64,000 nucleotides of DNA from Acidobacteriota bacterium. Its GTDB lineage: Bacteria > Acidobacteriota > Blastocatellia > RBC074. Numbering within the stretch: the first letter of the stretch is position 1; each line of letters starts with the position of its first letter. This document shows, piece by piece, positions 44,301-64,000 of this stretch. The translations under genes were made by a program, and so were the position numbers. Location of the stretch: positions 64,869-128,868 of the forward strand of contig JACPYM010000099.1 of assembly GCA_016196035.1 (NCBI GenBank), given 5' to 3'. The notes under the pieces were generated by a model. It searched no databases and was not told where the DNA came from. It was given only the letters and a program-made list of their open reading frames with translations.

Positions 44301-47300
44301 TTGTAGCGCTCGCTGGTCATCAGCAAACGGCCTTTCAAATTGAAGGCTTCGACGCGCCAGTAATACAGCACACCCGGCTGAAATTTGTCGGAGAGCTTCT
44401 TTACATCCAGCTTGGCATTCGCGGTCGCAAAGCGTTTGATCACCAGTTTGCCCGCTACGTCACTGGTGATTGTCACGCGGTAAATGACCGCCGCGCGCAC
44501 GGGCTGCCATTCCAAAATCGTCGTGTCCGTTGGTGAAGTCAGCGCGACAGGTTTTAGCGCGCCCGGTGTCAAACGGTTGATGCGCCGCATCGCGGCGGGT
44601 TCGCGCAAATTGCCCGCCGTCTCGACCACGCGCGCCGTCCACCACAATTCGCCTTCGGGCAAGGCTTGCCAGACGGCGAGCGGCACCTGCCATTCGGTGC
44701 CCGTCACGTCGTGCCATTGCGTGATCGTGTTAAAAAAGGGCTGCGTCGAAAAACCGATTTGGTATTTCATCGCGCCGGGCACGGGCGTCCAGCGCAACAC
44801 CGGCGTCTGTTCGGCGACATAGCCCGCGCCGGAATTGGGCTCGAGCAGGCGCAACATCTTCCAGGTGCCGTTGTTGATGATGATCTCGACCGGCGGCGAC
44901 TGAATCATGTTCGGCGACGTGATTTTGATTTCGAGCCGGTGCGGCCCCAGATAGATCGTCGGCAGCGGATTGTTCGGGCGCAGCGTGCGGCGCTCGCCCG
45001 CCGTGAAGTTGAGCGCGAACTGCTCGGTGACGTTGCCATCCCACAACCATTGGCCGATCACGGTGCCAGTACCCGCGCCTGCCAGCACGGCTTCGGCAAT
45101 GAGTCGCTCGCCTTGCGAGATGACGGTGCCGTTGCGCGGATAGATGATCAGCACGCTGGTGATCTGCAACGGCGCGCCCAGCGAACTGCCGCCCTGCACG
45201 CGCAAAGGTTTCGTCGTGCGCGAGCCATTCGCCCCGGTGCTGGTCAAATCGGCGTTGACCACGTCTACCGCGCGCATGTTGAGCGTGGCGTTGTTGGCGA
45301 CGCTGACGACAGCGTAAATCATCGTCTCGTTCACACGATTGACCGATTCGACCAGGATGTCGGCGGCGGGCATCAAGCCTGCATTGCTTTCGCTCGGGCC
45401 GATCACGACGCGCGCGCCGGGCCGGAAATTCGCGCCGATCAGCGTCAGGCGCACTTGCCGCGCGCCCTGGGCGACGGCGCTGGCGGTGACGGTGTTCAAG
45501 GTCGGCGGTGGCAACGGGCGCGGCGTGATTGTGAAGACAGCCGCGTTGGAAGTTCCGCCACCGGGCACGGGGTTGAACACGGTGATTTGAGCCGTGCCCG
45601 TGTTGGCGACATCTGCCGCTGGCACCTGCACGGCCAGTTGCGTGCCGCCGACGAAGCGCGCCGTGCGATTCGCGCCGTTCCAACGCACGACCGACGCGGG
45701 CAGGAAGCCGTTGCCATTGATCGTCAGCGTGAATTCGCCGCTGCCTGCGACGATGGAATTGGGGATGATCGCGGCGATGACGGGCGCGGGATTGTTGACG
45801 TTGATCGTCAGCGCGTTGGATTGGCCACCGCCCGGCGCGGGATTGAATACGGCGATGCTGGCGGTACCCGCGTTGAGCAAATCGGACGCGGGGATTTGCG
45901 CGCTCAACTGCGTGGCCGACACGAACATCGTCGGGCGGTTCGCGCCGTTCCAGCGCAGCACCGAATTCGCCACAAAGTTCGTGCCCGTGACTAGCAGCGT
46001 CACGCCCTGTGCGCCCGCCGCGAGCGGATTGGGCGTGGCAGCGGTCAGCGTCGGCACAGGGTTTTGCTGTTGGTTGATCGTAAAGGTCAGCGCATTGGAC
46101 GTGCCGCCGCCCGCGCCTGCCACGTTGGGTGGATTGAGCACCGTCACTGCCGCCGTGCCCGCGCTGGCGATGTCCGTCGCGGGAATCTGCGCCATCAATT
46201 GCGTCGCCGACACAATTGTGGTCGGGCGGTTCGCACCGTTCCAATGCACCACCGAGGTGTTGATGAAATTCGTGCCGGTCAGCATCAGGGCGAAACCCGC
46301 GCCGCCTGCGTTCACCGCATTGGGCGTCAAACTCGTCAAGGTCGGCACGGGCGCAGGCGCTTGGTTGATCGTAAACGGCAAGCTATTCGACGTGCCGCCG
46401 CCCCCGCTGGCATTGGGCGGATTGAAGACTGCGACCGTCGCCGTGCCTGTGTTGGCAATGTCCGTGGGCGGAATCTGCGCCATCAGTTGCGTCGCCGAAA
46501 GAAACGTCGTTGGGCGATCCGTGCCATTCCAGCGCAGCACTGAACTGTTGATGAAATTTGCGCCCGTGACCGTCAGCGTGAATCCGGCGCTGCCCGCATT
46601 GGCCGCGCTGGGATTGAGGGCGGTCAGGCGCGGCACGGGATTGGGCGCGACATTGATGGTGAACGGCACCGGGTTCGACGAGCCGCCGCCGCTGCCATTG
46701 GTGTTGGGCGGATTGAAGACGGTCACGTTCGCCACGCCCGCGTTGGCAATGTCGGTCGCGGGAATTTGCGCGCCGAGTTGCGTGGCGTTGATGAATTGCG
46801 TCGTGCGATTCTGCCCGTTCCAGCGCACGACCGAACCGGCAATGAAGCCGCTGCCGTTGACCGTCAAGGCGAACGCGGGGCTGCCCGCAACTGCCGCGTT
46901 CGGCGTAATCGAAATGACGATGGGTGCGGGGTTGTTGATGTTGATCGTTAGCGCATTCGATTGACCGCCGCCGGGCGCGGGATTGAACACCACGATGCTG
47001 GCCGTGCCTGCTGCATCTAAATCCGTCGCGGGAATCAACACGCTCAACTGGGTGCTTGAAATGAACGTCGTTTGCCGGTTTGCGCCGTTCCAGCGCAACA
47101 CCGAACCGGCGACGAAATTTGCCCCCGTCACCAGCAAGGTCACGCCCGGCGTCCCGACCTGAATCGGGTTCGGCGTGGCGTTGATGAGCGTGGGCACGGG
47201 GTTCTGGGCCTGAATGATCGTGAAAGGTAAGGCGTTCGTCGTGCCGCCACCGCCGCCCGCATTCGGCGGATTGAAGACCGCCACCGAAGCCGTGCCCGCG

Positions 47301-48763
47301 TTGGCGATGTCTGTCGCCGGAATCTGCGCCATCAACTGTGTCGCCGAAACAAAAGTCGTGGGGCGATCTGCGCCGTTCCAGCGCGCGACGGACGTGTTGC
47401 TGAAATTCGTGCCCGACAGCATCAAGGTGAAGCCCGCGCTGCCCGCGTTCGCCGTGTTTGGATTGAGGCTGGTCAGCGTCGGCACAGGCGCGGGCGCTTG
47501 ATTGATCGTGAAGGGCAAGGCGTTCGAGCTGAGTCCGCCCGCGCCATTGGGATCGGTGTTAAAGACCGTCACACTCGCGCTGCCCGCATTTGCCAGATCG
47601 CTGGCGGGAATCTGCGCGCTCAATTGCGACGCCGAAAGAAAGGTGGTCGGACGATTCGCGCCATTCCAACGCACCACCGAGAACACGCCGAAATTCGTGC
47701 CTGTCAGCATCAAGTTGAGCGGCGGACTGCCCGCGTTCGCCGTGTTCGGATTGAGGCTGATGAGTGTCGGTGTGGGAGTCGGTGCCGCATTGATCGTGAA
47801 CGTGACGGGATTGGAGGTGCCGCCGCCTGCGCCCGCCGTGTTGGGCGGATTGAAAACAGTCACGCTGGCACTGCCCCCATTGGCGATGTCGCTGGCGGGA
47901 ATTTGCGCGCTCAATTGTGTCGCCGAGAGGAACTGCGTCGGACGATTCGACCCATTCCAGCGTGCGACCGAGCCATTGATAAAGTTCGCGCCCGTCAGCG
48001 TCAGCGTAAACGCCCCGCCGCCCGCCGTCGCTTGATTGGGATTGAGATTGATCAACGTCGGCACCGGATTGGCCGCTTGATTGATCGTAAAGGAAACAGG
48101 GCTGGACGTGCCGCCACCCACACCTGCTGTGTTCGGCGGCGTAAAAACGGTCACGCTGGCGCTGCCAGGTGCCGCGATGTCACTGGCGGGAACCTGCGCG
48201 GTTAATTGTGTCGCTGACAAGAAATTCGTCGGCAGATTCGACCCGTTCCAACGCGCGACCGATGCATTGACGAAATTCGCGCCGTTCAACGTCAACGTGA
48301 AGGCCGGGCCGCCGGCATTCGCCGCGTTCGGGTTGAGACTGAGCAAGGTCGGCGCGGGCGGCGCGGGTTGGGTGATCGTGAAGATCAGCGGATTGGAAGC
48401 GCCGCCGCCTGCGCCGGGATTGAAGGCCGTCACTTGCGCGGTGCCCGCCACGGCCAAATCCGCCGCCGTGATGAGCGCCGTCAATTGCGCGGTCGAAATG
48501 AAATTGGTCGGACGATCTGCGCCGTTCCAGCGCACGGTCGTCAGGCGGTTGAAATTCAAACCGCTGACCGTGATGGTCAAGCCGGGCGTACCGGCTTGCG
48601 CAGAATTGGGGGCCAGGCCGGTCAGTGTCGGCACATTGGTTTGCGCGATTGCCAACACGCCCGTGCTGACCAGCGCCAGCCATAAACAGACGCTCCAGGC
48701 GCGTCTGTTGAAAAGCCCGTAGAAAAAAATGCCGAATTGTATTGAGCTGCGACTCCGCTTCAC
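41327..48763 (-). CDS. Giant IPT/TIG-repeat protein with C-terminal outer-membrane barrel
   Basis: A 2478-residue exported protein from the GTG at 48763, preceded by GGAGAG. Signal region: AWSVCLWLALVSTGVLAIAQ. Residues about 43-1170 hold twelve IPT/TIG-like beta-sandwich repeats of about 90-95 residues, most with the phrase RWNGANRPT, then SATQLSAQIPA and VFNPPN. Next comes a region with fibronectin-like features (VLRWTPVPGAMKYQIG, LYYWRVEAFNLKGRLL). Residues about 1547-1607 are encoded by an inserted family B palindrome. A Pro/Gln/Thr-rich linker follows, then from about residue 1890 a segment of alternating beta-strands (LSLSMQGRYKNGPWLTEMNG to LFLWTIVQPAKP) typical of an outer-membrane barrel, with a Pro/Gln-rich tail. 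The plan resembles an adhesin-like or autotransporter-like surface protein; its biochemical role is unknown. Confidence 0.85.
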   Translation of the reverse strand: MKRSRSSIQFGIFFYGLFNRRAWSVCLWLALVSTGVLAIAQTNVPTLTGLAPNSAQAGTPGLTITVSGLNFNRLTTVRWNGADRPTNFISTAQLTALITAADLAVAGTAQVTAFNPGAGGGASNPLIFTITQPAPPAPTLLSLNPNAANAGGPAFTLTLNGANFVNASVARWNGSNLPTNFLSATQLTAQVPASDIAAPGSASVTVFTPPNTAGVGGGTSSPVSFTINQAANPVPTLINLNPNQATAGGGAFTLTLTGANFINGSVARWNGSNRPTQFLSATQLSAQIPASDIANGGSASVTVFNPPNTAGAGGGTSNPVTFTINAAPTPTPTLISLNPNTANAGSPPLNLMLTGTNFGVFSVVRWNGANRPTTFLSASQLSAQIPASDLANAGSASVTVFNTDPNGAGGLSSNALPFTINQAPAPVPTLTSLNPNTANAGSAGFTLMLSGTNFSNTSVARWNGADRPTTFVSATQLMAQIPATDIANAGTASVAVFNPPNAGGGGGTTNALPFTIIQAQNPVPTLINATPNPIQVGTPGVTLLVTGANFVAGSVLRWNGANRQTTFISSTQLSVLIPATDLDAAGTASIVVFNPAPGGGQSNALTININNPAPIVISITPNAAVAGSPAFALTVNGSGFIAGSVVRWNGQNRTTQFINATQLGAQIPATDIANAGVANVTVFNPPNTNGSGGGSSNPVPFTINVAPNPVPRLTALNPSAANAGSAGFTLTVTGANFINSSVLRWNGTDRPTTFLSATQLMAQIPPTDIANTGTATVAVFNPPNASGGGGTSNSLPFTINQAPAPVPTLTSLTPNAVNAGGAGFALMLTGTNFINTSVVHWNGANRPTTIVSATQLMAQIPATDIASAGTAAVTVLNPPNVAGAGGGTSNALTFTINQQQNPVPTLTAATPNPLAAGAQGVTLLVTGTNFVANSVLRWNGANRPTMFVSATQLSAQIPASDLLNAGTASIAVFNPAPGGGQSNALTINVNNPAPVIAAIIPNSIVAGSGEFTLTINGNGFLPASVVRWNGANRTARFVGGTQLAVQVPAADVANTGTAQITVFNPVPGGGTSNAAVFTITPRPLPPPTLNTVTASAVAQGARQVRLTLIGANFRPGARVVIGPSESNAGLMPAADILVESVNRVNETMIYAVVSVANNATLNMRAVDVVNADLTSTGANGSRTTKPLRVQGGSSLGAPLQITSVLIIYPRNGTVISQGERLIAEAVLAGAGTGTVIGQWLWDGNVTEQFALNFTAGERRTLRPNNPLPTIYLGPHRLEIKITSPNMIQSPPVEIIINNGTWKMLRLLEPNSGAGYVAEQTPVLRWTPVPGAMKYQIGFSTQPFFNTITQWHDVTGTEWQVPLAVWQALPEGELWWTARVVETAGNLREPAAMRRINRLTPGALKPVALTSPTDTTILEWQPVRAAVIYRVTITSDVAGKLVIKRFATANAKLDVKKLSDKFQPGVLYYWRVEAFNLKGRLLMTSERYNFLPKPQKTSSLLPVEKLDWQIAWPEVAAGMAGRRDSTVSGSDGVSAELALLAKPQTRFGSPERAQFNSRGHGPRNSACDPPTLKGSQTDSNATPSGSGTELPCPGALPPAIEFVPFRDTAAHDLNRSIESSQAETPVTFVPVSAMAELQADVAEVDTPSPAAASPIYGAHGWAIGKEKDDAVAVAQTKTPASTTVAPKQQPAQKTATEPQNQPAQKTTTAPPNQAEPPAPQTQTAPPPSPKLTAMIAARSPLPDAFVKTATPAVSIDFNAPIQPSEVGLQIDDTDYSALAKITDRQVAFQPTIPLTNGKHQLLLNVGEEALGWFFTVNAAATTEQADPETKGTDAEQTTTATGAANAEATAAAEAAAAQQAPDGAAPVPAVEKEFKWEAASNQQDISGSEQDTHNLSLSMQGRYKNGPWLTEMNGSGLLNSLLSPNPRHSLGRFNDYIFHFGREWPFGAAANPAQPNPAAGQPGQTGLTGPQWGIDLRFGMVSPQSFLNAEYVSTGFAREGVELALKTPGGTFGFYRNTNDKGQGEGIGFGFHQRVYGGSYDAPAFTKDPERVKFRLMWLSANDVGGHPLKIGYDVEGNPLTQIDAFATPRVGDSYGSLLAVKLNKDWNWVSEYAITSNNVNRLAAEARRQFGRAWRTGFVGTWHKANISFSFRDVSPNYSIPATASLTQLSASDRRGVDFAISRNTLYGTFSGQYQYLQSDFRYDNRAHVGLNNVNLNWAKQLTHKTVKDATFSTMLSVGANVARTTTSNRTQPGIIGLADQGRDGVNVNLTETLQKPKLGALAVTVGGSRNWFRDTVNQRANNILTSLNVSTNWTPVNPWFQWTSTVSVNWLAGERFSVGASRTLTAYIQPTFNWTRTGLSLTPLVTLNQLSSQMLQLLEGAPLRRLTTGDMWMTNHGARLAWQLPGKYRFNVLSFEGSQMWMRDGLSGMTHRTPRLLFLWTIVQPAKPAPPKEEKQPQPEAQPQQSAPPSQTAPVKN
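43945..44122. repeat. Palindromic element, family B (copy 2), inside the IPT/barrel gene
   Basis: Outer arms 43945-43990 and 44078-44122 (CCCTGAAAGGG, CAATAGCCGGGGGCAACGCC and complements) enclose an inner palindrome at 44006-44062 (CCGACCCTGAAGGGGTCGCA and complement). It contributes about 60 residues in frame with no stop codon. The translation there (Pro/Ser/Arg-rich, with DPPTLKGSQTDSNATPSGSG) is unlike the rest of the protein. Confidence 0.93.
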
Positions 48764-49408: not shown

Positions 49409-50524
49409 TCAGGCTTCATCCTTCATCCTGCCGAAGATTTGCGCCGCGCGCTGGCGGTAAACCTCGGCTTCCTGCTCGCGCAGTTGCGTTTGGTAAAACT
49501 GCGCCAGGGTTTCCAGCAATTCGGCGACTTCCAGGTTTTGCACGCCGAGCAGCTTTTCTTTGATGGCCAGAGCGTGCAAATAACAACGTTCGGCTGCGGG
49601 CGCGCCGCTCAAGCGCGCCAGGGCCTGCCACAACACGGCCATCTCGTAATGTTCGGGGCCATACCGGCGTTCAACGATCGCCACGGCGCGGCGGTAAAGT
49701 TGTTCCGCCGCCGCGTGCCGCTGCAAATTTTCCTGAATCGCCGCCAACAGTTTCAGGTCAGGCACCAGTGCCGGATGGGCCGCGCCCAGCACACGTTCGC
49801 GCGTCACCAAGGCGCGATGGGCAAAATGTTCGGCTTCGGCCCAGTGGCCGCGCGCGATTTCCAACCGGCTCAGATCGCGGCACAGATCGGTGACGGAACT
49901 GTGCTCTTCGCCAAAGAGTGTTTCGTTGATCGCCAGCGCCTCTTCGTAATGCGCGCAGGCTTCGTCCAGGCGTTGCCGCGCTTGCAGCAGGATCGCCAGC
50001 CGATGGTGCACCGCGCCAGTTTCGGGACTGCATTTGCGAAAGGCGGTTTCCGCCAGCTCCAGCGCTTGGCGCAACCAAGGTTCGGCTTCGCTTAAGCGGC
50101 CTTGCGTCTGTTGCAAGGCCGCCAAACGCTGCCAGGTATGCAAACGCCAGCGATTTGTTTCGGATCGCGCGGCGGCGGATTGCGTCCGAGCGGGCTGTGG
50201 CCGTGTGGGCTGTGGCCTGGTGGATTCGAGCACACGCGCTAGCCGCTCATAGAGCCGGACCGCTTTGGCTTGGTCGCCATTCGCTTCATAAAGTTTTGCC
50301 AGATGATCGAGAAATTGGGCCAAGTGCAGCGGGTCATCGCCGGCTGCCGTTTCGGCCAATTGCAGCGCGCCCTGCCAGAGCGACTTGGCTTGTGACGGCT
50401 CTGGTTGGACGCGCGCGGTGACACCCAGGTTATGGCATAAGTTGCCTGATTTGGGCAATGCACCCGTGCGCGGCAACTCGCTCGCCGGCTCGCTGCTCAA
50501 ATTGCTCTTGTTCGTCTCGATCAT
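49409..50524 (-). CDS. Tetratricopeptide-repeat protein (kinesin-light-chain-like repeats)
   Basis: A 371-residue soluble protein without a signal peptide. At least six TPR or kinesin-light-chain-type repeats are visible, for example LDHLAKLYEANGDQAKAVRL, HHRLAILLQARQRLDEACAH, LAAIQENLQRHAAAEQLYRR and LLETLAQFYQTQLREQEAEV. A Pro/Arg linker (TRPQPTRPQPARTQ) sits at about residues 100-115 and comes from a short DNA duplication. It is likely a scaffold for protein contacts. No partner is evident; the next gene upstream encodes a small secreted protein, 253 bp away with a terminator between them. Confidence 0.85.
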   Translation of the reverse strand: MIETNKSNLSSEPASELPRTGALPKSGNLCHNLGVTARVQPEPSQAKSLWQGALQLAETAAGDDPLHLAQFLDHLAKLYEANGDQAKAVRLYERLARVLESTRPQPTRPQPARTQSAAARSETNRWRLHTWQRLAALQQTQGRLSEAEPWLRQALELAETAFRKCSPETGAVHHRLAILLQARQRLDEACAHYEEALAINETLFGEEHSSVTDLCRDLSRLEIARGHWAEAEHFAHRALVTRERVLGAAHPALVPDLKLLAAIQENLQRHAAAEQLYRRAVAIVERRYGPEHYEMAVLWQALARLSGAPAAERCYLHALAIKEKLLGVQNLEVAELLETLAQFYQTQLREQEAEVYRQRAAQIFGRMKDEA

Positions 50525-52511: not shown

Positions 52512-55500
52512 TCAACGCGGCACGTTCAGTTCCCAAACGCGCGCCAAGGTGTCCGCTTCCGCCTGCGCCCCTTGCTGCCGCAACTTGGCGGCCAGCTTTT
52601 CCGCCCAACAGCCGCGCGCCTGGCGAAAGAGCGCGCCGCGCGCCGCATCCGCCGCCGCGATTTGTTCGCGCATCTCGTTCAACAGCCGCACGCAACTGCG
52701 CAACGCTTCGACGGCTTCGCGTTGGTGCTTCTCGTCCGGGCTTTGTTCTAACACCAGCGCCAGCGCCTGAGAGCCGCGCCAGCGTTCGCCCGCGCCGCTC
52801 TCTTCCAACAGGCTCAGCGCGCGTCGCAAGCCAGCCAGGGCTTTCGCCGTATCGCCCAGTGCAAACTGCGCCCGCGCCTGTTCAATCAAGGCCAACCCCA
52901 AACCATCCACGTTGTGCAACTCATCGGCAATGACGACGGCTTCGGTCGCCAGGGCCAGCGCGAATTCAGCTTCGTCCGTCGCCAGCCGCAAGCGCGCCAG
53001 GTCGGTCAGCATGCGAAATTCGTCAGCGCGGTCGCCGACGCTTTCGCGGATGGTCAGCAGCGCGCCGGTCAAATGCGCTTCGGCCAGCGGGTGTTGACCC
53101 AATTCGCAATACGCGCGGCCCAACAGCCATTGGGCCTCGGCTTCGATGTGAGTGTCGCCGACGCGGCGCAAACTTTCCTGCGCGCGTTTGAGCAATTCGA
53201 CAGCCTCGTCATACAGCCCCTGCGCCAGCCGCGCCTGGCCGATGCCCAAATCCATCTGCGCTTCGCCGCGCGCGTCGCCGACGCTGCGAAAGTCGTCGCG
53301 CGCGCGCAGCGCCAGTTCAATCGCGCCTTCATAACGGCCCCGCGCCAGATCGGCCCAATGCCGCCGCCGCAACAACAGCGCGCGGCGCTGCGCATCGCCG
53401 ATGCTGCCCATGTAATCCACCGCGCGTTCGAGCAGCGGTACGCCTTCTGAATAATGCCCTTGCAGCGCGCGCGCCCAACCCAACAGGCCAAAGGCCACCG
53501 CCGCAATCTGGCTGTTGAGCGCGACATCGGCCAGCGCCTGTTGCGCGAACTCTGCCGCCGCGTCGTAATGCCCCAGCCGTACCTGCACGCCGCCCAGTTG
53601 CAACAGCGCCAGCGCCACGCCTTCGACATCGTTGAGTTGCCGGTATAACTCCAACGCCTGCTCGGTCACGAGCACAGCTTCGCGGTACTGGCCCAGGCCC
53701 ATCTGCGTTTGCCCGCGTTGCAACAGCGCCACGGCCAAGCCGCCACGGTCATGCACGGCGTTGGCGAGCGCGACGGCTTCGCTATAGGCGCGTTCGGCTT
53801 CCGGCAAATTGCCCGTGGCGTAACAGGTTTCGCCCCAGGCGAAGAGCACGCGCAGGCGTTCGGCTGGATCGAGCGGCGCGGTCGCCCCGCGCTGCACGTC
53901 GTCGGCGGCGCGGCGGGCGCGTTCGATGTTGGACATGGCTTCACTCCAGGATTGGCGGCTGCTGGCGGCTTGCCAGGCGCGCATGCTCCACTCAAAAGTG
54001 CGCAGGGCGTCACCGGCGGCTTCGTAATGTGCGCTCAAGGCTTCGGCAACGCGCTCGCGGTCGCGGCGATACACGCGCTCCAACGCTTGCGCGGCTTGCA
54101 GGTGCAACCGCTTGCGGCGGCGCGGCGGCAGGTTTTCATAGAGCACGTGACGCAGAGTCGTGTGATAGAACCGCGCGTCATTGCCCGCCGAAACGCCGCG
54201 TTCAGACAGCACACCGACTTTGACGCCGGCCAGCAGCAGGCTTTCGATTTCCTCTTCGCCGCGCCCCAGCATCTGCGCCAGCGTTTCGATGCGGAACTCA
54301 TCGCCGATCACGGCGGCGGCTTCGGCCAATTCGCGCACTTCCTCGCTCAACCGGTCGAGCTTGGCGTGCGCGGCCATCACGATGGTGTCGGGCAAATGCA
54401 AATCCTTGAGGCCCTGCCATTCCCAAATCGCCTGTGTGGGATTGAACGTGATCGCGCTCTCTGACACCAACAGCCGCAGCATCTCGGTTAGGAAATAGGG
54501 ATTGCCGCCCGTCACGTGATGCAGCCGCTGCAAATCGGCGGGTGGCACGTGCAGCGTCTGGTTGAAGACGGCTTCGCTTGCGCTGCGGCAATCGTCGGCG
54601 TTCAGCGGCCCGAGCGTCAGCGCGGTGTAGCTGCGCAAACTGGCCTGCCGCCGCAACCATTCAGCCAGCGGATGATGCCGGTCGTTGGCGGCTTCGGCGC
54701 GCGCCAGGCTGACGATCATCAGCGGTTCGCTTTGCAGTGTGCGCAGCAAATAGCCCACGCAATCACGGCTCGCCTCGTCGGCCCATTGCAAATCGTCGAA
54801 GACCAGCACCAGCGGACGATGCAAACTGGCGCGCACAAAACACTGGCTCAAGGCCACGACCGTGCGCGAATTGCTGCTGTTGCTGATGAGCGGCCCGGTA
54901 GTTTTTGGGATTGCGGATTGGGGATTGCGGATGGCGGATTCGGGCATCACTAGGGTGCCGGTGGTTTTGATTAAACGTGCGTTGGCATCAGCAAACAGTT
55001 CATCCGGCAAGGTGACGCCGAGTTGTTGCTGGGCCAGCGCGCGCAGATCACAGGCCGCCAGCGGCTGCGCGCATTCGCTCGCACCGGCATTCGGCACGCC
55101 CAAGACCGTGCGCAACAGATCAAGAAAGACTTCGTAAGGCGCCAACCGGCTGGCCTGATAATCGAAGAACCGCGCGGACAGGCAAAGCGCACCTTGGGCC
55201 TGCGACCAGCGCACAAAGGCCCGCGCCAGTTGCGTCTTGCCAATGCCCGGTTCGCCCAGGATCATCACCGGGCGTCCATTCCCAGCCAGCACGCGCGTGT
55301 ATTCGGTTTGCAACTGTTGCAACTCGGCCTCGCGCCCGACCAGTTGGTTGTAATCGGGCACGCCCAGCCCCGCACCGGTCGTGAACGGGACGATGCCCGC
55401 GTGACGCATTGAAGGGGAATCAAAGACAGGCACGCGCTGTTCGCCGGTCACGGCTGGCGCGGGCGGAATCAACGCGGGCGCTGCCGCAGTGCCCGCGCCG

Positions 55501-56567
55501 CCACTGCGTTGTGCTTCCGGCGCGGGCGACGCGGCTGAGACAGGCGCGTCTTTTTGAACAACAGGCGCGGCCTCGCAAGTCACATCGGCGATAAAACGAT
55601 AGCCCTGGCCGTGATAGGTTTCGATGAAGCGCGCCTGATCGGCCACATCGCCCAACGCGCGCCGGGCCTGTGAAATCGCGCGTTTCAGCACGCCATCGGT
55701 CGTGAAGGTATCGGGCCAGACGGCTTCGAGCAACTCGTCTTTGGTGACGACGCGTTCGCTGTGTTCGGCCAAAAAGCGCAGCACCTGCACGGCGCGGCGT
55801 TCAAGCGCGACCATCTCGGCGCCGCGATAGAGCAAGTCCACCTTGGCCGGAATGCGAAAGGCTCCAAATTGCAATTCGCTGTGTGACATCTTGATTCTCC
55901 AATGCGGAATGATGCGGCTGCGCAGGGCTTTGCTGACCGCTTCGTTTTTGGAATGGACGTGGAGTTTGTCGTAGATGCTGCGGATGTAATTGCGCACCGT
56001 GTTGACACTGATATTGAGTTGTCCGGCGGCGCTCTGGTAACTGTGTCCGTCGGACAGCAGTTGCAAGAGCCGGACTTCCTGGGGCGTGAGCTGGTCATCG
56101 GGCTGAGCGGATGTGCCAATGAGATGGCCGGTCTTTTGAAAGAGCGTGACGACCTTGCGCGCGATTTCGGGCGACATCGGCGAGCCGCCCTCGTGCGCTT
56201 CACGAATGGAATCGAGCAGGCGGGCGGGCGGCGTTTTCTTGAGCAAATAGCCGCACGCGCCGTTGCAGATGGATTCAAAAATCTTGTCCTGCTCGGCATA
56301 GACGGTCAGCATCAACACCTGCATCTGCGGGAAGCGTTCGCGGAAGACTTTCACACCGTCCGAACCGAGCATGCCGGGCAAATGAATGTCGAGCAGCAGC
56401 ACCTCGGGCACGTTCGCGCCCAATTCGTGCAGCGCTTCTTCGACCGAACCGAAGGTGCGCGGGCAGCGAAAGCCCGGCGTCGCGTTGATCAATAAGCCCA
56501 GGCCTTCGCGCAACGAACGGTCGTCTTCGACGATGGCGACATGAATGGTGCTGGTAGCCGTTTCCAT
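52512..56567 (-). CDS. Fusion regulator: receiver-LuxR joined to wHTH-AAA ATPase-TPR
   Basis: A single frame of 1351 residues from ATG 56567 (METATSTIHVAIVEDD), with GGAGAACAAATC upstream; the open frame to 56903 covers a repeat and is unlikely to be used. Order: NarL-type receiver (about 7-125; phospho-acceptor in EVLLLDIHLPGM, conserved Lys in YLLKKTPP), LuxR helix-turn-helix (about 150-215; LTPQEVRLLQLLSDGHSYQS), an OmpR/CadC-type winged helix (about 230-325; LQFGAFRIPAKVDLL, ARFIETYHGQGYRF), an AAA ATPase (Walker A LGEPGIGKTQLA near 434, Walker B LVLVFDDLQWADEAS near 584) and about 480 residues of TPR. A 7-bp repeat is inserted between the Walker motifs (near 542-553). The second half has its own ATG at 55889 with GGAGAATCAAG before it. 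The two halves are known separately; the fusion is unusual. Confidence 0.85.
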   Translation of the reverse strand: METATSTIHVAIVEDDRSLREGLGLLINATPGFRCPRTFGSVEEALHELGANVPEVLLLDIHLPGMLGSDGVKVFRERFPQMQVLMLTVYAEQDKIFESICNGACGYLLKKTPPARLLDSIREAHEGGSPMSPEIARKVVTLFQKTGHLIGTSAQPDDQLTPQEVRLLQLLSDGHSYQSAAGQLNISVNTVRNYIRSIYDKLHVHSKNEAVSKALRSRIIPHWRIKMSHSELQFGAFRIPAKVDLLYRGAEMVALERRAVQVLRFLAEHSERVVTKDELLEAVWPDTFTTDGVLKRAISQARRALGDVADQARFIETYHGQGYRFIADVTCEAAPVVQKDAPVSAASPAPEAQRSGGAGTAAAPALIPPAPAVTGEQRVPVFDSPSMRHAGIVPFTTGAGLGVPDYNQLVGREAELQQLQTEYTRVLAGNGRPVMILGEPGIGKTQLARAFVRWSQAQGALCLSARFFDYQASRLAPYEVFLDLLRTVLGVPNAGASECAQPLAACDLRALAQQQLGVTLPDELFADANARLIKTTGTLVMPESAIRNPQSAIPKTTGPLISNSSNSRTVVALSQCFVRASLHRPLVLVFDDLQWADEASRDCVGYLLRTLQSEPLMIVSLARAEAANDRHHPLAEWLRRQASLRSYTALTLGPLNADDCRSASEAVFNQTLHVPPADLQRLHHVTGGNPYFLTEMLRLLVSESAITFNPTQAIWEWQGLKDLHLPDTIVMAAHAKLDRLSEEVRELAEAAAVIGDEFRIETLAQMLGRGEEEIESLLLAGVKVGVLSERGVSAGNDARFYHTTLRHVLYENLPPRRRKRLHLQAAQALERVYRRDRERVAEALSAHYEAAGDALRTFEWSMRAWQAASSRQSWSEAMSNIERARRAADDVQRGATAPLDPAERLRVLFAWGETCYATGNLPEAERAYSEAVALANAVHDRGGLAVALLQRGQTQMGLGQYREAVLVTEQALELYRQLNDVEGVALALLQLGGVQVRLGHYDAAAEFAQQALADVALNSQIAAVAFGLLGWARALQGHYSEGVPLLERAVDYMGSIGDAQRRALLLRRRHWADLARGRYEGAIELALRARDDFRSVGDARGEAQMDLGIGQARLAQGLYDEAVELLKRAQESLRRVGDTHIEAEAQWLLGRAYCELGQHPLAEAHLTGALLTIRESVGDRADEFRMLTDLARLRLATDEAEFALALATEAVVIADELHNVDGLGLALIEQARAQFALGDTAKALAGLRRALSLLEESGAGERWRGSQALALVLEQSPDEKHQREAVEALRSCVRLLNEMREQIAAADAARGALFRQARGCWAEKLAAKLRQQGAQAEADTLARVWELNVPR
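54908..54942. repeat. Five 7-bp units (GGATTGC type) inside the ATPase domain
   Basis: Units GGATTGC, GGATTGG, GGATTGC, GGATGGC and GGATTCG follow one another without gaps. On the coding strand they are read as ESAIRNPQSAIP. The insertion is flanked by a direct repeat: coding-strand AAAACCACCGG and AAAACTACCGG, giving KTTGTL before it and KTTGPL after it. Confidence 0.9.
55887..55901 (-). promoter_or_regulatory. Internal ribosome binding site and start codon within the fusion gene
   Basis: On the minus strand TTGGAGAATCAAG precedes an ATG at 55889 that begins MSHSELQFGAFRIP, exactly the start of the winged-helix domain. No stop codon separates it from the upstream LuxR domain (ending RSRIIPHWRIK). 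It looks like the retained translation start of a formerly separate gene and may still yield a 1125-residue product. Confidence 0.7.
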
Positions 56568-56636
56568 GATTTGTTCTCCGGCACCCATCCTCACGCACTT
56601 TGCGTTGGGCGTCCAGAGCATAAATATGCGCCTATT

Positions 56637-56753
56637 GTTGGCAGTTGGCGGTTGGCGGTTGGCGGTTGAATAAAAAAGCGACGTTGAAGTAGTAGCCAGC
56701 AACCTACAACCACGTATCAGGAACTGCCAACCGCCAACCGCCAACTGCCAACT
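56637..56753. repeat. 7-bp tandem repeat with inverted copy (GTTGGCG units)
   Basis: GTTGGCG/GTTGGCA units at 56637-56667 and complementary CCAACCG/CCAACTG units at 56721-56753. The block lies between the VanX-like gene and the regulator gene on the minus strand. Confidence 0.9.
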
Positions 56754-57678: not shown

Positions 57679-58881
57679 TCAAGCGCACAGCAATTTATAA
57701 GACTTCAAGCCCAGCGTCACCACATCGCCCGGTTGCAAGGGCAAACGGTGTGCGTCCCATTTCGTCCGCGTGACTTTGAGGACAATGTTCGCGGCAGGCC
57801 TTGCGCCAATTGCGGCACTCGCCAGCGTCAACCCGCTCTGACTCTTGGGCAACAAGCGCACGGTTAGAGATTCCGTGGCCCCCGCAAACGCGACATCCAG
57901 CACTTCGGCGCGGCCAAATTGATGCGGCGTTTCGAGGCGGCCATTCAAATGGCCCAGCACGATGTCTTCGGGACGAAAGACGATTTTGACCTGCTCAGCC
58001 CCCAGCGGTTCGTAACCTTGGCTGAACAGAAAATGCTCGTCGTCAATTTCGATGACGCGCTCGCGGGGCCGCCCGGTTACGACATTGGCGGCGCCCAGGA
58101 AGGTGGCGACGAATTCGGTCTGCGGTTCGTTGTAAACCTCATAGGGCGAGCCGATCTGTTCGATGCGCCCGCGATTGAGGATGGCGATTTGATCGCCAAG
58201 TTCCATGCCCTCTTCCTGATCGTGCGTGATGAAGATGGCCGGCACGCGCAACCGGCGCAACAGGGCGCGGATTTCGCGGCGTAAGCCGACGCGCGTTTGC
58301 GGATCGAGCGCGCTGAACGATTCGTCAAAGAGCAGCAAGTCCGGTTCGTAAGCCAACGCCCGCGCAATCGCGACGCGCTGTTGCTGGCCGCCCGAAAGTT
58401 GCGCCGGGTATTTGTCACGATGTTCGGTCAGCCCGATCATCGTCAGCATCTCGTCAGCCTTCTCAAAGCGTTGCTGCTTTTTGACGCCGCGAATCTTCAA
58501 GCCGAAGGCGATGTTTTCGGCCACGGTCATGCGCGGGAACAGCGAGTAATGCTGAAAGATCACGCCGATGTTGCGTTCGCGCGCGCGCAAATGTTCGATG
58601 TGGCGGCCCTTCAGAAAAATGCCGCCGCCATCCGGCCCGGCCAAGCCCGCCAGCAAGCGTAAGGTCGTGCTCTTGCCACTGCCCGAGGGTCCCAGCAGCA
58701 CGAGGCTCTCACCTTCGGCCACGGAAAAGCTGACATCATCGAGAATCAATTCGTCCCCGATGTATTTCACCAGATGCTGCACGCGCAACGCGGTGCGCGC
58801 CTCGGCTCTGGCCTGCCCATCGGCATGCGTCTGAACCGTGCGAGTTTCAGGATAAAAGGGGATTGCCAGTTCTCTCGCCAT
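57679..58881 (-). CDS. cysA: ABC transporter ATP-binding protein, sulfate/thiosulfate (CysA) type
   Basis: A 400-residue ATPase from ATG 58881, with AAGGAGG six bases upstream. An N-terminal extension of about 30 residues precedes the nucleotide-binding domain: Walker A LLGPSGSGKSTTLRLLAG, Q-loop FQHYSLFPRMTV, signature QLSGGQQQRVAIARAL, Walker B PDLLLFDESFSALDPQ, H-loop FITHDQEEGMELGD. The C-terminal about 110 residues form a TOBE-type regulatory domain (KIVFRPEDIVLGHLNG; VTRTKWDAHRLPLQPG). The tandem with a CysT-like permease and a sulfate-type binding protein on the same strand points to sulfate or thiosulfate import; molybdate cannot be excluded from this gene alone. Confidence 0.9.
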   Translation of the reverse strand: MARELAIPFYPETRTVQTHADGQARAEARTALRVQHLVKYIGDELILDDVSFSVAEGESLVLLGPSGSGKSTTLRLLAGLAGPDGGGIFLKGRHIEHLRARERNIGVIFQHYSLFPRMTVAENIAFGLKIRGVKKQQRFEKADEMLTMIGLTEHRDKYPAQLSGGQQQRVAIARALAYEPDLLLFDESFSALDPQTRVGLRREIRALLRRLRVPAIFITHDQEEGMELGDQIAILNRGRIEQIGSPYEVYNEPQTEFVATFLGAANVVTGRPRERVIEIDDEHFLFSQGYEPLGAEQVKIVFRPEDIVLGHLNGRLETPHQFGRAEVLDVAFAGATESLTVRLLPKSQSGLTLASAAIGARPAANIVLKVTRTKWDAHRLPLQPGDVVTLGLKSYKLLCA

Positions 58882-58902
58882 CACAGACCTCCTTTGGTGG
58901 AG

Positions 58903-58950
58903 GGATGAGGAATGAGGAATGAGGGATGAAAACTTTGTGCTTCATCCTTG
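58903..58950. repeat. 7-bp tandem repeat (GAATGAG units) between permease and ATPase genes
   Basis: Units of GGATGAG / GAATGAG at 58903-58930 with a partial inverted copy (CTTCATCCTTGACCCCTC) just downstream. It lies between the permease stop (58963) and the ATPase start. Confidence 0.8.
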
Positions 58951-58962
58951 ACCCCTCAACAC

Positions 58963-59808
58963 TCACCCTTTTTCTAGTTTCTTGCGAGTCAATAAAATCA
59001 AGGAAAAGATCGCAAACGAAAGGATCGCCAGCACGGCGGCAATCGCATTGGCGCCTTCGACATCGCCTTCGTTGAATTTGGTGAAGATGTAAAGGGGCGC
59101 GGTTTGCGTCTTCAACGCCAGATTGCCGCTGACCATAATCGTCGAACCGAATTCGCCAATCGAACGCGCGAAGGTCAACAGCGCGCCCGTGATGATCGCG
59201 CCGCGCAAACTCGGCAAAATCACGTACCGAAACGATTGCCAACGTGACGCGCCTAAAGTTTCGGCGGCGTCTTCCAAACTGGTATCCAGGTTTTCGAGCG
59301 CCGGTTTGATTACGCCAAAGGCCAGCGGGAACGTGACGAAGATATTCGCCAGGATGATCGCCGCTGTCGTGAACATGATTTGATAATCGGTGCGTTCCAG
59401 GAATTGCCCCAGCAAGCCCTGCCGTCCCCACAACAACAACAACGCAAAGCCCGCCACCGCCGTCGGAATCGCGGTCGGCAAGCTGATGATGATCGTCAAC
59501 GCCGATTCGCCGCGAAAGTTGTACTTCGTCATCACATACGCGGCGATCAATCCGAAGAAAACATTGCAGGCCGTGGCCGCGCTGCTGGTCAGCAAACTCA
59601 ACTTCAGTGAAAAGAGCGCCGCCGGATTGAGTAACGCCTGCCAAAAATGCGACGGCCCTTTGCTCAGCGAATAAATAAAGATCGAAGCCAGCGGCAGCAT
59701 CACCAGTGGCAGCATCGCCGTCACGATGAAGCCAATCCCCAGCGGGCGCGCCAAATCAAAACCGTGGCCAGGCAATGGTGCAGCTTGTTTTTCCCAGGCA
59801 GTACTCAT
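58963..59808 (-). CDS. Sulfate-type ABC transporter permease (CysT/CysW family)
   Basis: A 281-residue inner-membrane permease with about six transmembrane segments (LGIGFIVTAMLPLVMLPLAS and others). The EAA loop that docks on the ATPase is EDAAETLGASRWQSFRYVIL. NVFFGLIAAYVMTKYNFRGE and LPTAIPTAVAGFALLLLWG are typical of CysT. Enterobacterial sulfate importers use two permeases, CysT and CysW; only one is encoded in this cluster, so it may work as a homodimer or with a permease encoded elsewhere. It lies between the cupin gene and the ATPase gene, all on the minus strand. Confidence 0.88.
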   Translation of the reverse strand: MSTAWEKQAAPLPGHGFDLARPLGIGFIVTAMLPLVMLPLASIFIYSLSKGPSHFWQALLNPAALFSLKLSLLTSSAATACNVFFGLIAAYVMTKYNFRGESALTIIISLPTAIPTAVAGFALLLLWGRQGLLGQFLERTDYQIMFTTAAIILANIFVTFPLAFGVIKPALENLDTSLEDAAETLGASRWQSFRYVILPSLRGAIITGALLTFARSIGEFGSTIMVSGNLALKTQTAPLYIFTKFNEGDVEGANAIAAVLAILSFAIFSLILLTRKKLEKG

Positions 59809-59819
59809 CTTTGCTCAGA

Positions 59820-59912
59820 GTGAAAAGTGAAAAGCGAAAAGCGAAAAGCGAAAAGCGAAAAGAAAGGCATAAAGATCACTGTTCACTATTCACTTTTCAC
59901 TTTTCGCTTTCA
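59820..59912. repeat. 7-bp tandem repeat with inverted copy (GAAAAGC units)
   Basis: Four GAAAAGC-type units at about 59822-59862 and the complementary run (CACTTTT / CGCTTTT) at 59888-59911. The second run overlaps the 3' end of the cupin gene and encodes its last residues (LKAKSEK). Confidence 0.88.
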
Positions 59913-60348
59913 ACATTCCCGGCGAATTCCATTTGAAGACGTGATAGGTCGCGGGCGTTTTGCCGACATTGCGAATCGCGTGCATTTGATTCGACGCCTG
60001 AAAGATCACCGACCCCGGCCCCAGAATGTGCTTTTCTCCGCCGACCAATGACTCGACCGTGCCTTCTTTAACAATGACGATCTCTTCGTCTGCGTGCTGG
60101 TGCGGCGCGTGGGGCGATTCGCCGGGGTTGAGCGTCGTGACGTGACATTCCAACTCATCCAGCGTCGCGGTCGGCGCCTGAAAGAATTTGCGCACCGCGC
60201 CGTGCGTGTTCGGCGTGGCGGCAATCTTGTTCCAGTCCCAGACCGACGATCCCATGATCGGTTTGTCGTCGCGCGCGAACGATACGCCCGCCCAGGTCGC
60301 ACTCGCCGCCAGCAGCGCCACGGTCAAATCACGTTTGGTTAGTTTCAT
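59890..60348 (-). CDS. Exported cupin-domain protein in the sulfate-transport operon
   Basis: A 152-residue protein from ATG 60348 (GGAGCTAGACAAAGC upstream). The N-terminal segment TKRDLTVALLAASATWAGVS looks like an export signal. A single cupin barrel has the metal-ligand set PHAPHQHADEEIVIVKEG (His, His, Glu) and the distal His in NQMHAIRNVG, so it probably binds a metal ion. The gene starts 14 bp after the binding-protein stop codon and precedes the permease gene, so it is translated with a sulfate-type transporter; a role in periplasmic handling of a sulfur compound is inferred, not known. The last codons are derived from a 7-bp repeat. Confidence 0.83.
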   Translation of the reverse strand: MKLTKRDLTVALLAASATWAGVSFARDDKPIMGSSVWDWNKIAATPNTHGAVRKFFQAPTATLDELECHVTTLNPGESPHAPHQHADEEIVIVKEGTVESLVGGEKHILGPGSVIFQASNQMHAIRNVGKTPATYHVFKWNSPGMLKAKSEK

Positions 60349-60362
60349 GCTTTGTCTAGCTC

Positions 60363-61412
60363 CTATTTGGCCATTTGAATCCGGCGTTTCCACACGCCTT
60401 CGATAATTTCGGGATAAGCGCGCTGCCAGCCCCCCAGGTCGCCGACGGTAAACGGCAATTCGATTTTGGCGAAACGCGGGTTGGCACGGTTCAATTCTTC
60501 AAAATTGATCGAACGAAAGTTCGCTTTGACCCAAGCCCGTTGCGCATCTTCAGACCACAAATAGCGCGCGAACAACTCCACCAGCGCGTATTTCGCGGGC
60601 GGCATCCCGTGATCCACGATCACGACCGGGTGCTCGCAAAAGATCGTGCTTTGCGGCACGACGATCTCAAAGGGCAGCTTTTTCGCCTTCAACTGTAAGG
60701 CCTCCATCTCATAAGTGATCAGCGCATCGCCTTCGCCGCGTTCCAACTGCGTGCGGGCGGCGCGCGCCGAATCGGGTGTAGCAATTACGTTCGCCCAAAC
60801 TCGCCTTAGCAAATCAAAGGCCGCCGCCTCATCGCGCTCATCCTTGCGGTGTTCCGACTTGGCGATTTCGGAACCGTAAATCGCCAGCAACGACCATTGC
60901 CCGCCGCCGGATGCCGTTGGGTCAGGATGAATCAGTTTCACGCCCGGTTTGGCGAGGTCGGAGAAATCGCGAATCTTTTTCGGATTGCCCTGCCGCACCA
61001 AAATCACCATCGGTGTCTTGTTGACGATGCCGTTGTACGGCAGCCAGCGCCAATCGCTCTTGGTCGCGGCGGTATCCATTAAGCGCTGCGCATTGCGTTC
61101 GATGGCCAGAATCGCCAGATCGGCTTCCACGCCGGAGACGATCTGGTTTGTGACCATCTCCGAACCGGCAAACGAGGGCGTGAAGGTCAGGTGCTGGCCC
61201 GTCTTGGTGGCCCAGTCACGCTCAAACGCCGGGATAATATCGTTTTCGAGCGGCTCTTTGACCACGCTGAAACCGTAAACCGTGATCGTGGCTTCCTTGG
61301 CGATGTCGGACTTGCGGCGGCAATTTGTCAAAGAACTGCCCAGCAGCAAAACACAAAAGAGCCGGAGGAAGCGTGCGCGTCGGGTTCGTTTGTCAGGCGT
61401 GCAGCCGTTCAT
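60363..61412 (-). CDS. Sulfate-type ABC transporter substrate-binding lipoprotein
   Basis: A 349-residue protein from ATG 61412 (MNGCTPDKRTRRARFL); a GTG four codons earlier overlaps the GAGGAG sequence and is less likely. The signal sequence ends in a lipobox (LLLGSSLTNC), giving a lipid-anchored periplasmic protein. Family features of sulfate-binding proteins are VKEPLENDIIPAFERDWATK, VSGVEADLAILAIER, KLIHPDPTASGGGQWSLLAI and EGDALITYEMEA. The anion-binding segment reads TPSFAGSEMVTNQ instead of the SHGGSGKQ found in enterobacterial Sbp, so specificity may differ (sulfate, thiosulfate or another oxyanion). It is the first gene of the operon followed by cupin, permease and ATPase. Confidence 0.88.
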   Translation of the reverse strand: MNGCTPDKRTRRARFLRLFCVLLLGSSLTNCRRKSDIAKEATITVYGFSVVKEPLENDIIPAFERDWATKTGQHLTFTPSFAGSEMVTNQIVSGVEADLAILAIERNAQRLMDTAATKSDWRWLPYNGIVNKTPMVILVRQGNPKKIRDFSDLAKPGVKLIHPDPTASGGGQWSLLAIYGSEIAKSEHRKDERDEAAAFDLLRRVWANVIATPDSARAARTQLERGEGDALITYEMEALQLKAKKLPFEIVVPQSTIFCEHPVVIVDHGMPPAKYALVELFARYLWSEDAQRAWVKANFRSINFEELNRANPRFAKIELPFTVGDLGGWQRAYPEIIEGVWKRRIQMAK

Positions 61413-62082
61413 GTGTGGCGCCACTCCTCAGGTCACTGGTTTCGGGCAATCACTGTTATCGCACGTTGGCGTGGCTTGTCATTCGACGGCTTCGCACCTT
61501 GCGCCAGGTCGCGGCAGCGGCGCTACGCTAGCCTAAACAGATCGGGTGCAACAGCGTCCGGCGCACCTGTGGGAGCAATCTGTCAGTTCACTCAGGGAGA
61601 TTCAGAAGGGTAACGTTCATCCAACAAATAGTGAGGAAATCAGCATTGACTGCGGCTGGGAACAGAGGCGGCTTCGGGTGCGAACAATGTCGGGTTGTCA
61701 TTGTAGTGTGCATCAGCCTTCCTCTTGGCGCGGTGACCGCGCAATTTTACTGTCGCGAACTGCCAATCCCAGCGGCGTTGTCCCAAGCCTGTCTGTCTGC
61801 CTTAGCCAGGTTCCAGGTCATTTTGTCATCGGTCAATTATTGGTTTGGGCAACAAAACACATCAATTACGGTAACGAAAACGTGTGTGTTTCTATTTCGA
61901 TTTTCGTGGAAAACACGTGCCTTATACACGCCCATATTGGCAAAGTCAATTCTTGAAATTGCGCGCCAAAGCTACCTTCAGCAAGCAACGCGAACGCAGC
62001 TTTGCGGTTGCCAAAAGGCGTATCCACACAGGTCAGGCGCATCCAGCAGCGCCGGCTTAAACGACTCAAAATAAGCCACCCT
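61413..62082. other. Gene-free region between mtnC and the sulfate-binding protein gene
   Basis: About 670 bp with lower GC content than the neighbours (notably 61840-61960). Two plus-strand frames (61546-61956 and 61631-62074) have no domain content and are probably spurious. The region should contain the promoter of the sulfate operon. It was searched by eye for SAM-riboswitch-like signatures on the minus strand, and none was recognised. Confidence 0.45.
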
Positions 62083-62829
62083 TCAACGCGGAAAAACCTC
62101 ATCAAAGCTCTGCACCTGCTGGCTAAAACCCGGCGGCACGGCAGGCGCATTCCCCGGGCGCACAGCCAGCAAAGTTTGCAACCCGGCGGCGTGGGCAGCT
62201 TCCAACTCCGCTGTCACGTCAGAAATGAAAGCGACATGCGCCGGACTGACCGCCAAAGCCGCCGCGATGGTTTGATAACTATGTGCCGCGCGTTTCGGGC
62301 CGCTGGTGGTGTCAAAATAGCCGCTCAAGCAACTGGTCAAATCGCCTGCCGTGGTATGCGCAAAGAGCAACTTTTGCGCCAGCACGCTGCCAGACGAATA
62401 GAGGCAAACGCGCCGCTCTTGTTCATACCAACGAGCCAGCGCGCGCGGCACGTCTTCAAACATCACGCTACGCAACTCGCCCTGCCGATAACCTGTCGCC
62501 CAGATTTTCCCTTGCAGTGATTTGAGCGCGGTGGATTTGCGATCCTGCTCCATCAGCCACAGCAGATACGCCGCCGCAGATTCCAACACTGCGCTCTCAG
62601 CCCAAACTGGCGGCGCAAGCTGATGTGCGACATCGGCTGCATGTTCCGCGCGCAAGCCGAGCAAATCTTCCTGCACTTCATGCTCTGACCAATGCAGCGC
62701 CAGATATTCTTTCAGATGAAGGCGCGCGTAAGGGAACAGCACCTGATACACGAAATCTATCGGCGTCGTCGTGCCTTCGATGTCGAGCAGGATGACTGGC
62801 ACTGGTTCATTCAAGCGAATCGTCGTCAT
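62083..62829 (-). CDS. mtnC: Enolase-phosphatase E1 (methionine salvage)
   Basis: A 248-residue HAD-family enzyme that enolises and dephosphorylates 2,3-diketo-5-methylthiopentyl-1-phosphate to acireductone. The nucleophile motif is [20 protein letters not shown], with the family-specific [25 protein letters not shown] is the second motif, [17 protein letters not shown] carries the conserved Lys, and [20 protein letters not shown] is the acidic motif. The ATG at 62829 overlaps the mtnD stop codon (ATGA), indicating translational coupling in the order mtnB-mtnD-mtnC. Confidence 0.95.
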
Positions 62830-63392
62830 AGAGCCGGGATGCTGGCGGGAAGATACGCCGCACCAAAACAAAGCGGTTGATACGCATCATCCGCGCCGCT
62901 CTCGGTGTAATTGGGCGACCAACCCGCCGGGTCTTTGAACAAACGAATTGCGCGGATGCGCTGTTCGGCGCACAAGTTAAACCAATGCAGCGTTCCTTGC
63001 GGCACACGAATCAAATCGCCCGCTTCGACTTCAATCGCCACCACAGGCGCATCTTTTGGATGGATGTGAAACAAGCCCCGGCCTTCGATGATGAAACGCA
63101 CTTCGTCATCGTCGTGCCAATGCTCGCGCTTGAACTTTGCCAGCATCGCCTCCAGCCCCGGCGTCAGCGGCGAGACATCAATCACATCCGCCGTGACGTA
63201 ACCGCCGTTGGCTTTCAGGCGTTCGATCTCCGGCGCGTAGGCGGCCAGAATCTCGGCGGCGGGCGCAGCGGGCGCGACCGCGTGCGCTGGTTCCCAGCGT
63301 TCGTAATCAATGTTGATGGAGGCCAGAAACTGCGTCAGTTCCCGTGCGTCTTGGATCGTGCGCTCTGCTTGCGGAATTGAAACTACAGCCAT
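62826..63392 (-). CDS. mtnD: Acireductone dioxygenase
   Basis: A 188-residue metal-dependent cupin dioxygenase that converts acireductone to the alpha-keto acid of methionine plus formate (Fe form) or to the off-pathway products (Ni form). The metal ligands are in [17 protein letters not shown] (His, His, Glu) and [10 protein letters not shown] (His). The start at 63392 has AAGGGGG upstream; a longer frame from 63419 overlaps the end of mtnB and is less likely. Product length is typical (about 180-190). The gene lies between mtnB and mtnC and is coupled to mtnC by a four-base overlap. Confidence 0.95.
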
Positions 63393-63409
63393 ACGAGTCC
63401 CCCTTGGTT

Positions 63410-64000
63410 TCACTGCCATGCCCCAGGCACCCTGTGTGTTCGTTGCAACCGCCCCGTCACCTCCAGCAGGAATTCAAAAATTTCGACGTGGCGGCGCGCT
63501 TCGCTCAGGGTTCGCCCCCAGGTGTACAACCCATGCCCGCGCAGCAAAAATCCATGCGCGGCGGGTTGTTCATGCAACACCGTGGCGAGCGTTTGCGCCA
63601 GCGAGGTCATGTCCTGCGAATTCTCAAGAATCGGCAACCACTCAGCGTGCTGATGCGATTGAACGCCCGCCAGCCCTTTCAACATTTCCCAACCGGTGAT
63701 GCTCAGTCCGCCCTGCGCGGCAAATTCATCTGACAACAACGTCGCCCAAACGGAATGCGTATGCAACACCGCGCGTGCGCCGCGTTGCCGCACCAGCGTC
63801 AGATGCAACGGCGTTTCATCTGAAGGCTTGCCCGCGCCACTGACCAGCGCGCCATCTTCATTCAACAGGATGAATTCTTGCTCCGTCAACTGGCCCTTGT
63901 CTTTGCCGCTGGCGGTAATCAACAACCGCAACGGATCGCCGTTGACCACCGCGCTGAAATTGCCGCTGGTACCCAACACCCAGCCACGCTGATAAAAGCC
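63410..64000 (-). CDS. mtnB: Methylthioribulose-1-phosphate dehydratase, 5' end beyond window
   Basis: The frame is open to the right edge; the first visible residues are [20 protein letters not shown], so about 15 N-terminal residues are missing. This is a class II aldolase-fold zinc enzyme dehydrating methylthioribulose 1-phosphate. Characteristic are [52 protein letters not shown] (zinc histidines) and [20 protein letters not shown] (the third His). It is the first gene of the visible minus-strand group mtnB-mtnD-mtnC; with mtnA and mtnK presumably elsewhere, it recycles methylthioadenosine to methionine. Confidence 0.95.

Follow-up and report, generated by a model that had tools for sequence, protein, structure and literature searches.

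Probable fusion of a NarL-type response regulator to a STAND-type regulator through stop-codon loss in an Acidobacteriota genome

A single open reading frame on the reverse strand of an Acidobacteriota genome appears to encode two complete DNA-binding regulators, one after the other. This raises the question of whether the two are now one protein or are still an ordinary pair of genes. The frame lies in a stretch of 64,000 nucleotides (G000:C99), referred to here as the window. It translates with zero internal stops (Table 1), and the in-frame run into the second regulator that an earlier note had reported is therefore unbroken. The likely explanation is a genuine, lineage-specific fusion, in which an adjacent response regulator (RR) gene and a wHTH-AAA-TPR STAND gene on the same strand were joined by loss of the RR stop codon.

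Table 1. Positions in the window of the fused frame, its domains and its junction
Feature	Position	Strand	Basis
Fused ORF, 1351 aa	52512..56567	-	Translation
Receiver domain Response_reg, residues 10-121	56205..56540	-	Pfam PF00072; D15/D16, D60, T88, K110 present
LuxR/GerE HTH, residues 158-213	55929..56096	-	Pfam PF00196, 46.7 bits vs. cut-off 23.5
Winged HTH Trans_reg_C, residues 252-325	55593..55814	-	Pfam; nearest curated full-protein model CadC
AAA_16 ATPase, residues 408-619	54711..55346	-	Pfam, 98.7 bits; Walker A GEPGIGKT, Walker B LVLVFDD
TPR array, about residues 902-1251	52815..53864	-	Pfam
RR ribosome-binding site GGAG, 8 nt 5' of ATG 56567	56576..56579	-	Sequence; duplex energy -6.6
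Linker PHWRIK, residues 221-226, six residues, probably formerly intergenic	55890..55907	-	Coding end of the complete RR orthologues examined, here or a few codons away
TGG codon (W223), about where G010 and G008 have TGA (TGAAG vs. TGGAG)	55899..55901	-	Presumed base homology
GGAG for internal start, overlaps TGG	55897..55900	-	Duplex energy
Second-gene ATG, retained (M227; 1125-aa product possible)	55887..55889	-	Sequence, relatives
Protein sequence across junction			...ALRSRIIPHWRIKMSHSELQFG...

The first half, residues 1-220, is intact and can be classed as a NarL-type response regulator. The DD, D, T and K residues of the receiver are all present in the alignment (PF00072), and a GerE/LuxR HTH domain (PF00196) is located after the receiver. 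These domains and phosphoacceptor residues bear out the earlier reading of a complete NarL-type regulator. Phosphorylation by a cognate kinase is suggested by genetic association. Like VraR, DevR and NarL, the protein combines REC with GerE and keeps the phosphoacceptor set, and it matches the solved VraR, DevR and NarL over its full length. It differs from these NarL/FixJ regulators in that its C-terminus runs on into another complete regulator.

The second half, from M227, is an intact wHTH-AAA_16-TPR regulator. It possesses a P-loop NTPase with Walker A and B motifs and a repeat sensor (the TPRs), and can be classed as a STAND-type regulator, for which a nucleotide switch and oligomerization are predicted. 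The earlier note had called this part SARP/MalT-like. The winged helix, AAA ATPase and TPRs were indeed found, but membership of the SARPs (AfsR type) is ruled out by a wHTH without a BTAD domain: a search for BTAD (PF03704) in residues 227-419 at E-values up to 1 gave zero matches. "SARP-like" is thus an analogy only.

Several known regulators resemble the second half in part. The NOD-TPR portion of AfsR inhibits the protein's own DNA-binding part, and ATP relieves the inhibition (PMC10936776). Regulators of the AfsR kind likewise have an N-terminal DNA-binding wHTH, an NTPase and TPRs, whereas the second half has no BTAD and carries a receiver-HTH at its N-terminus. The TPR/ATPase part resembles AfsR only partially and scores far under the NCBIfam cut-off (66 vs. 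1430 bits). AAA/STAND and TPR parts are shared with MalT and the LAL regulators, with a TPR_MalT match that is weak and below cut-off. MalT has its LuxR HTH at the C-terminus, whereas in the window protein this domain is part of the fused RR. The wHTH aligns with CadC, as in CadC/ToxR-like regulators, over residues 5-131 of the second half, but an ATPase and TPRs replace the sensor part of CadC. No description of REC-GerE-wHTH-AAA-TPR proteins was found in the literature searched, which is weak evidence because the coverage of the search was limited.

The longest mechanical ORF reaches 56903. The start was placed at 56567 by comparison with relatives, and the stretch between the two positions overlaps the neighboring gene and an inverted repeat. 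In 56640-56740, 5' of the RR, copies of a CAACCGCCAACCGCCAACTGCCAAC-like motif are present in opposite orientations, at 56668 (-) and 56728 (+). These could possibly form a hairpin between a VanX-like gene and the RR. An AlphaFold model of residues 1-345, with a single sequence as input, had a pLDDT of 42.5, too low to be informative. In a variable loop of the AAA domain, ESAIRNPQSAIPK is encoded by a low-complexity ATCCGCAATCCCCAATCCGCAATCC stretch at 54903-54941. The stretch resembles a dispersed repeat turned coding, and no other copy was found within the window.

Looking for the halves in relatives had been proposed as a check. Both orthologues were found adjacent on one strand in G010, G008 and G006, which belong to another genus (g5) of the same family, and in none of these are they fused. 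The RR ends there in ALRSGIIS, followed by TGA, TGA and TAA, respectively, and the next ATG lies 18 nt (G010), 18 nt (G008) and 111 nt (G006) beyond the stop. An open frame of 1363 in the search table suggested that G006 was fused; this was ruled out, as the sequence has two TAA codons, the first of them after IIS. G009 has its RR and second gene on different contigs. Separate genes in all close relatives had been named as an argument against the fusion. This is literally what the three relatives have, but because they all belong to another genus, it dates the fusion and does not refute it.

Across the class, the complete RR orthologues examined all terminate at the same point, give or take a few codons. 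There were 113 RR-family matches at E-values up to 1e-45 in 162 genomes of the class, and only the window exceeds an open frame of 339 aa; the others have frames of 126-339 residues. A junction-spanning query against 396 genomes of the phylum gave no unbroken spanning match among the matches listed. Separate orthologues in the relatives, together with the one long frame, therefore point to a derived fusion, private to this genome, that arose when the RR stop was lost, and it is seen in one assembly only. Separate adjacent orthologues, intact halves and a junction at the old stop were all found, as gene fusion by stop loss entails. Since the stop codon between the genes is gone, the two regulators are now one 1351-residue protein, and since the nearest relatives with the adjacent pair still make two, this is probably a recent gene fusion.

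In the RR tree, the window groups with the RRs of g5 (support 100/99), and its branch is not long (0.19). The second-half tree also groups the window with g5 proteins (100/99). As both trees place the window with g5, the pair was inherited; as both halves are sister to g5 genes, the two genes were already adjacent in the ancestor of both genera, and the fusion is the derived state. The single same-genus genome compared, G001 (73% complete), has no close orthologues of either half. Its relative of the second half (49% identity) lies 11 nt behind a PAS-HisKA kinase gene, a second tie of the second regulator to two-component signaling. A contig profile search with the second-half alignment recovered only distant STAND proteins (best 32% identity).

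It is conceivable that stop readthrough already gave some fusion protein in the sister genus and that the window lineage hard-wired it. The RR frame of G010 and G008 continues past the TGA into the downstream gene without meeting another stop. This fits two of the three relatives only, as G006 has two in-frame TAA codons, and chance alone would put one pair in three in frame. Readthrough is regarded as a very improbable origin.

At the junction, the window reads ATC ATT CCG CAT TGG AGA ATC AAG ATG, and G010 reads ATC ATC TCC TGA AGT TTT CCA ATC AAG TTT ATG. The common TG(A/G)AG and AATCAAG suggest a change of TGA to TGG plus small indels. Because the automatic alignment is gappy at the junction, the exact mutational path can only be inferred.

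Four single-base changes within the linker would each bring back a stop, so a single consensus error could mimic the fusion. The true linker might then contain a stop (for example, TGA at W223), leaving two ordinary neighboring genes like those of the sister genus. One base would be enough, the assembly is a draft of 139 contigs, and all three relatives with the adjacent pair have a stop within a few codons. Against this, the long ORFs around the junction show no gene-sized frame damage. Neither of the other two frames has a stop 5' of the ATG, so an indel would not restore one, and a frameshift artefact is ruled out. Consensus substitution errors are rare a priori. Such a base error is considered unlikely, but it is the chief doubt about the fusion, ahead of doubt about its biological importance.

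The GGAG site and ATG ascribed earlier to the second part are both there, at 55900-55897 and 55889, with a spacing of 7 nt. Anti-SD pairing is -6.4 kcal/mol at this internal start and -6.6 at the RR start. At the second-gene start of the relatives it is +0.5 (G010), +0.6 (G008) and -6.1 kcal/mol (G006). The change to TGG probably also created this GGAG. Since the TGG bases form a GGAG 7 nt 5' of the old ATG, a separate 1125-aa product remains plausible. Internal initiation is supported but unproven, because about 5% of the 209 internal in-frame ATGs in the window's long ORFs match its anti-SD energy. In reporter work, reinitiation dropped steeply with intergenic distance and was nearly gone by about 20 nt (PMC10666635); tight coupling is therefore also not expected in the unfused relatives.

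The strong internal GGAG-ATG, and the restriction of the fusion to one genome, would also suit a real stop loss that is nearly neutral. The activities would then be mainly separate (a free second regulator and an RR with a tail), and the fusion a transient or strain polymorphism. Neither half shows decay, though a young event would lack time for it. Without the stop, each ribosome starting at the RR makes the fusion. A near-neutral event thus appears improbable.

Differences between the window and G010 at codon positions 1/2/3 are 0.15/0.07/0.41 for the RR and 0.34/0.22/0.52 for the second half, and the catalytic and phosphoacceptor residues are intact in both. These residues and the third-position bias speak against pseudogene decay of either half. 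This constraint accumulated mostly before the fusion and is no evidence of selection for the fused form.

A possible partner of the RR can be identified from more distant genomes. In six outgroups (G003, G026, G041, G030, G020, and G014) the RR lies directly behind a kinase of about 1060 aa with Reg_prop, Y_Y_Y, HisKA_3 and HATPase domains, as scanned on the G003 copy. In the kinase tree, G000:C107:160486-163653 groups with the g5 copies (100/99), inside the clade of the outgroup kinases. No RR of the same family was found in 10.5 kb around it. About 4 kb separates the kinase from the RR pair in G008. The Reg_prop/Y_Y_Y/HisKA_3 kinase appears to be the ancestral partner of the RR, and in the window genome the pairing would be retained at a distance: as the orthologue is on another contig, the phosphate donor of the RR is most likely a kinase encoded elsewhere. 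In G006 (L033:3245-4060) and G010 (L150:3310-4125) all that was seen of the kinase orthologue is a C-terminal frame of 272 aa, and the propeller kinase may therefore be truncated or broken in these two genomes.

Other genes were observed around the fused frame. A 371-aa TPR protein is encoded downstream on the same strand (49409-50524). A similar TPR gene is present divergently upstream of the RR in G008 (L032:7065-8237) and G009 (L036:6136-7197), and it may thus belong to a conserved neighborhood. A 2478-aa protein (41327-48763) has many near-identical repeats (SLNPNTANAGS...RWNGANRPT). By eye, 57679-61424 holds ABC transporter and binding-protein genes of the sulfate/molybdate kind, and 62083-64000 holds genes resembling methionine salvage.

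Both alternatives of the earlier note hold in part: a former adjacent pair lost its stop, and the result is an in-frame fusion of two intact, constrained DNA-binding regulators. Its control by phosphorylation and ATP is predicted from sequence. The RR stop was probably lost by TGA to TGG with small indels, and a spacer of about 18 nt would have become the six-residue linker. D60 could be phosphorylated by the orthologue of the ancestral kinase, encoded elsewhere in the genome. Dimerization of the RR might carry the attached STAND module to sites bound by the RR or aid STAND oligomerization, so that phosphorylation and ATP/TPR input would act on one complex. If the internal site is used, the old GGAG-ATG would still yield the free 1125-residue regulator. 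It is a more doubtful proposal that the one gene yields two regulators, the RR-STAND fusion and free STAND, whose ratio sets the response while phosphorylation gates the STAND switch.

This is an interesting fusion, but it is not a new kind of system. It has been caught while the sister genus still has the two genes unfused and adjacent, and the regulators concerned carry two independent control inputs, phosphorylation and nucleotide/TPR. The fusion suggests that the STAND regulator and the RR cooperate even as separate genes.
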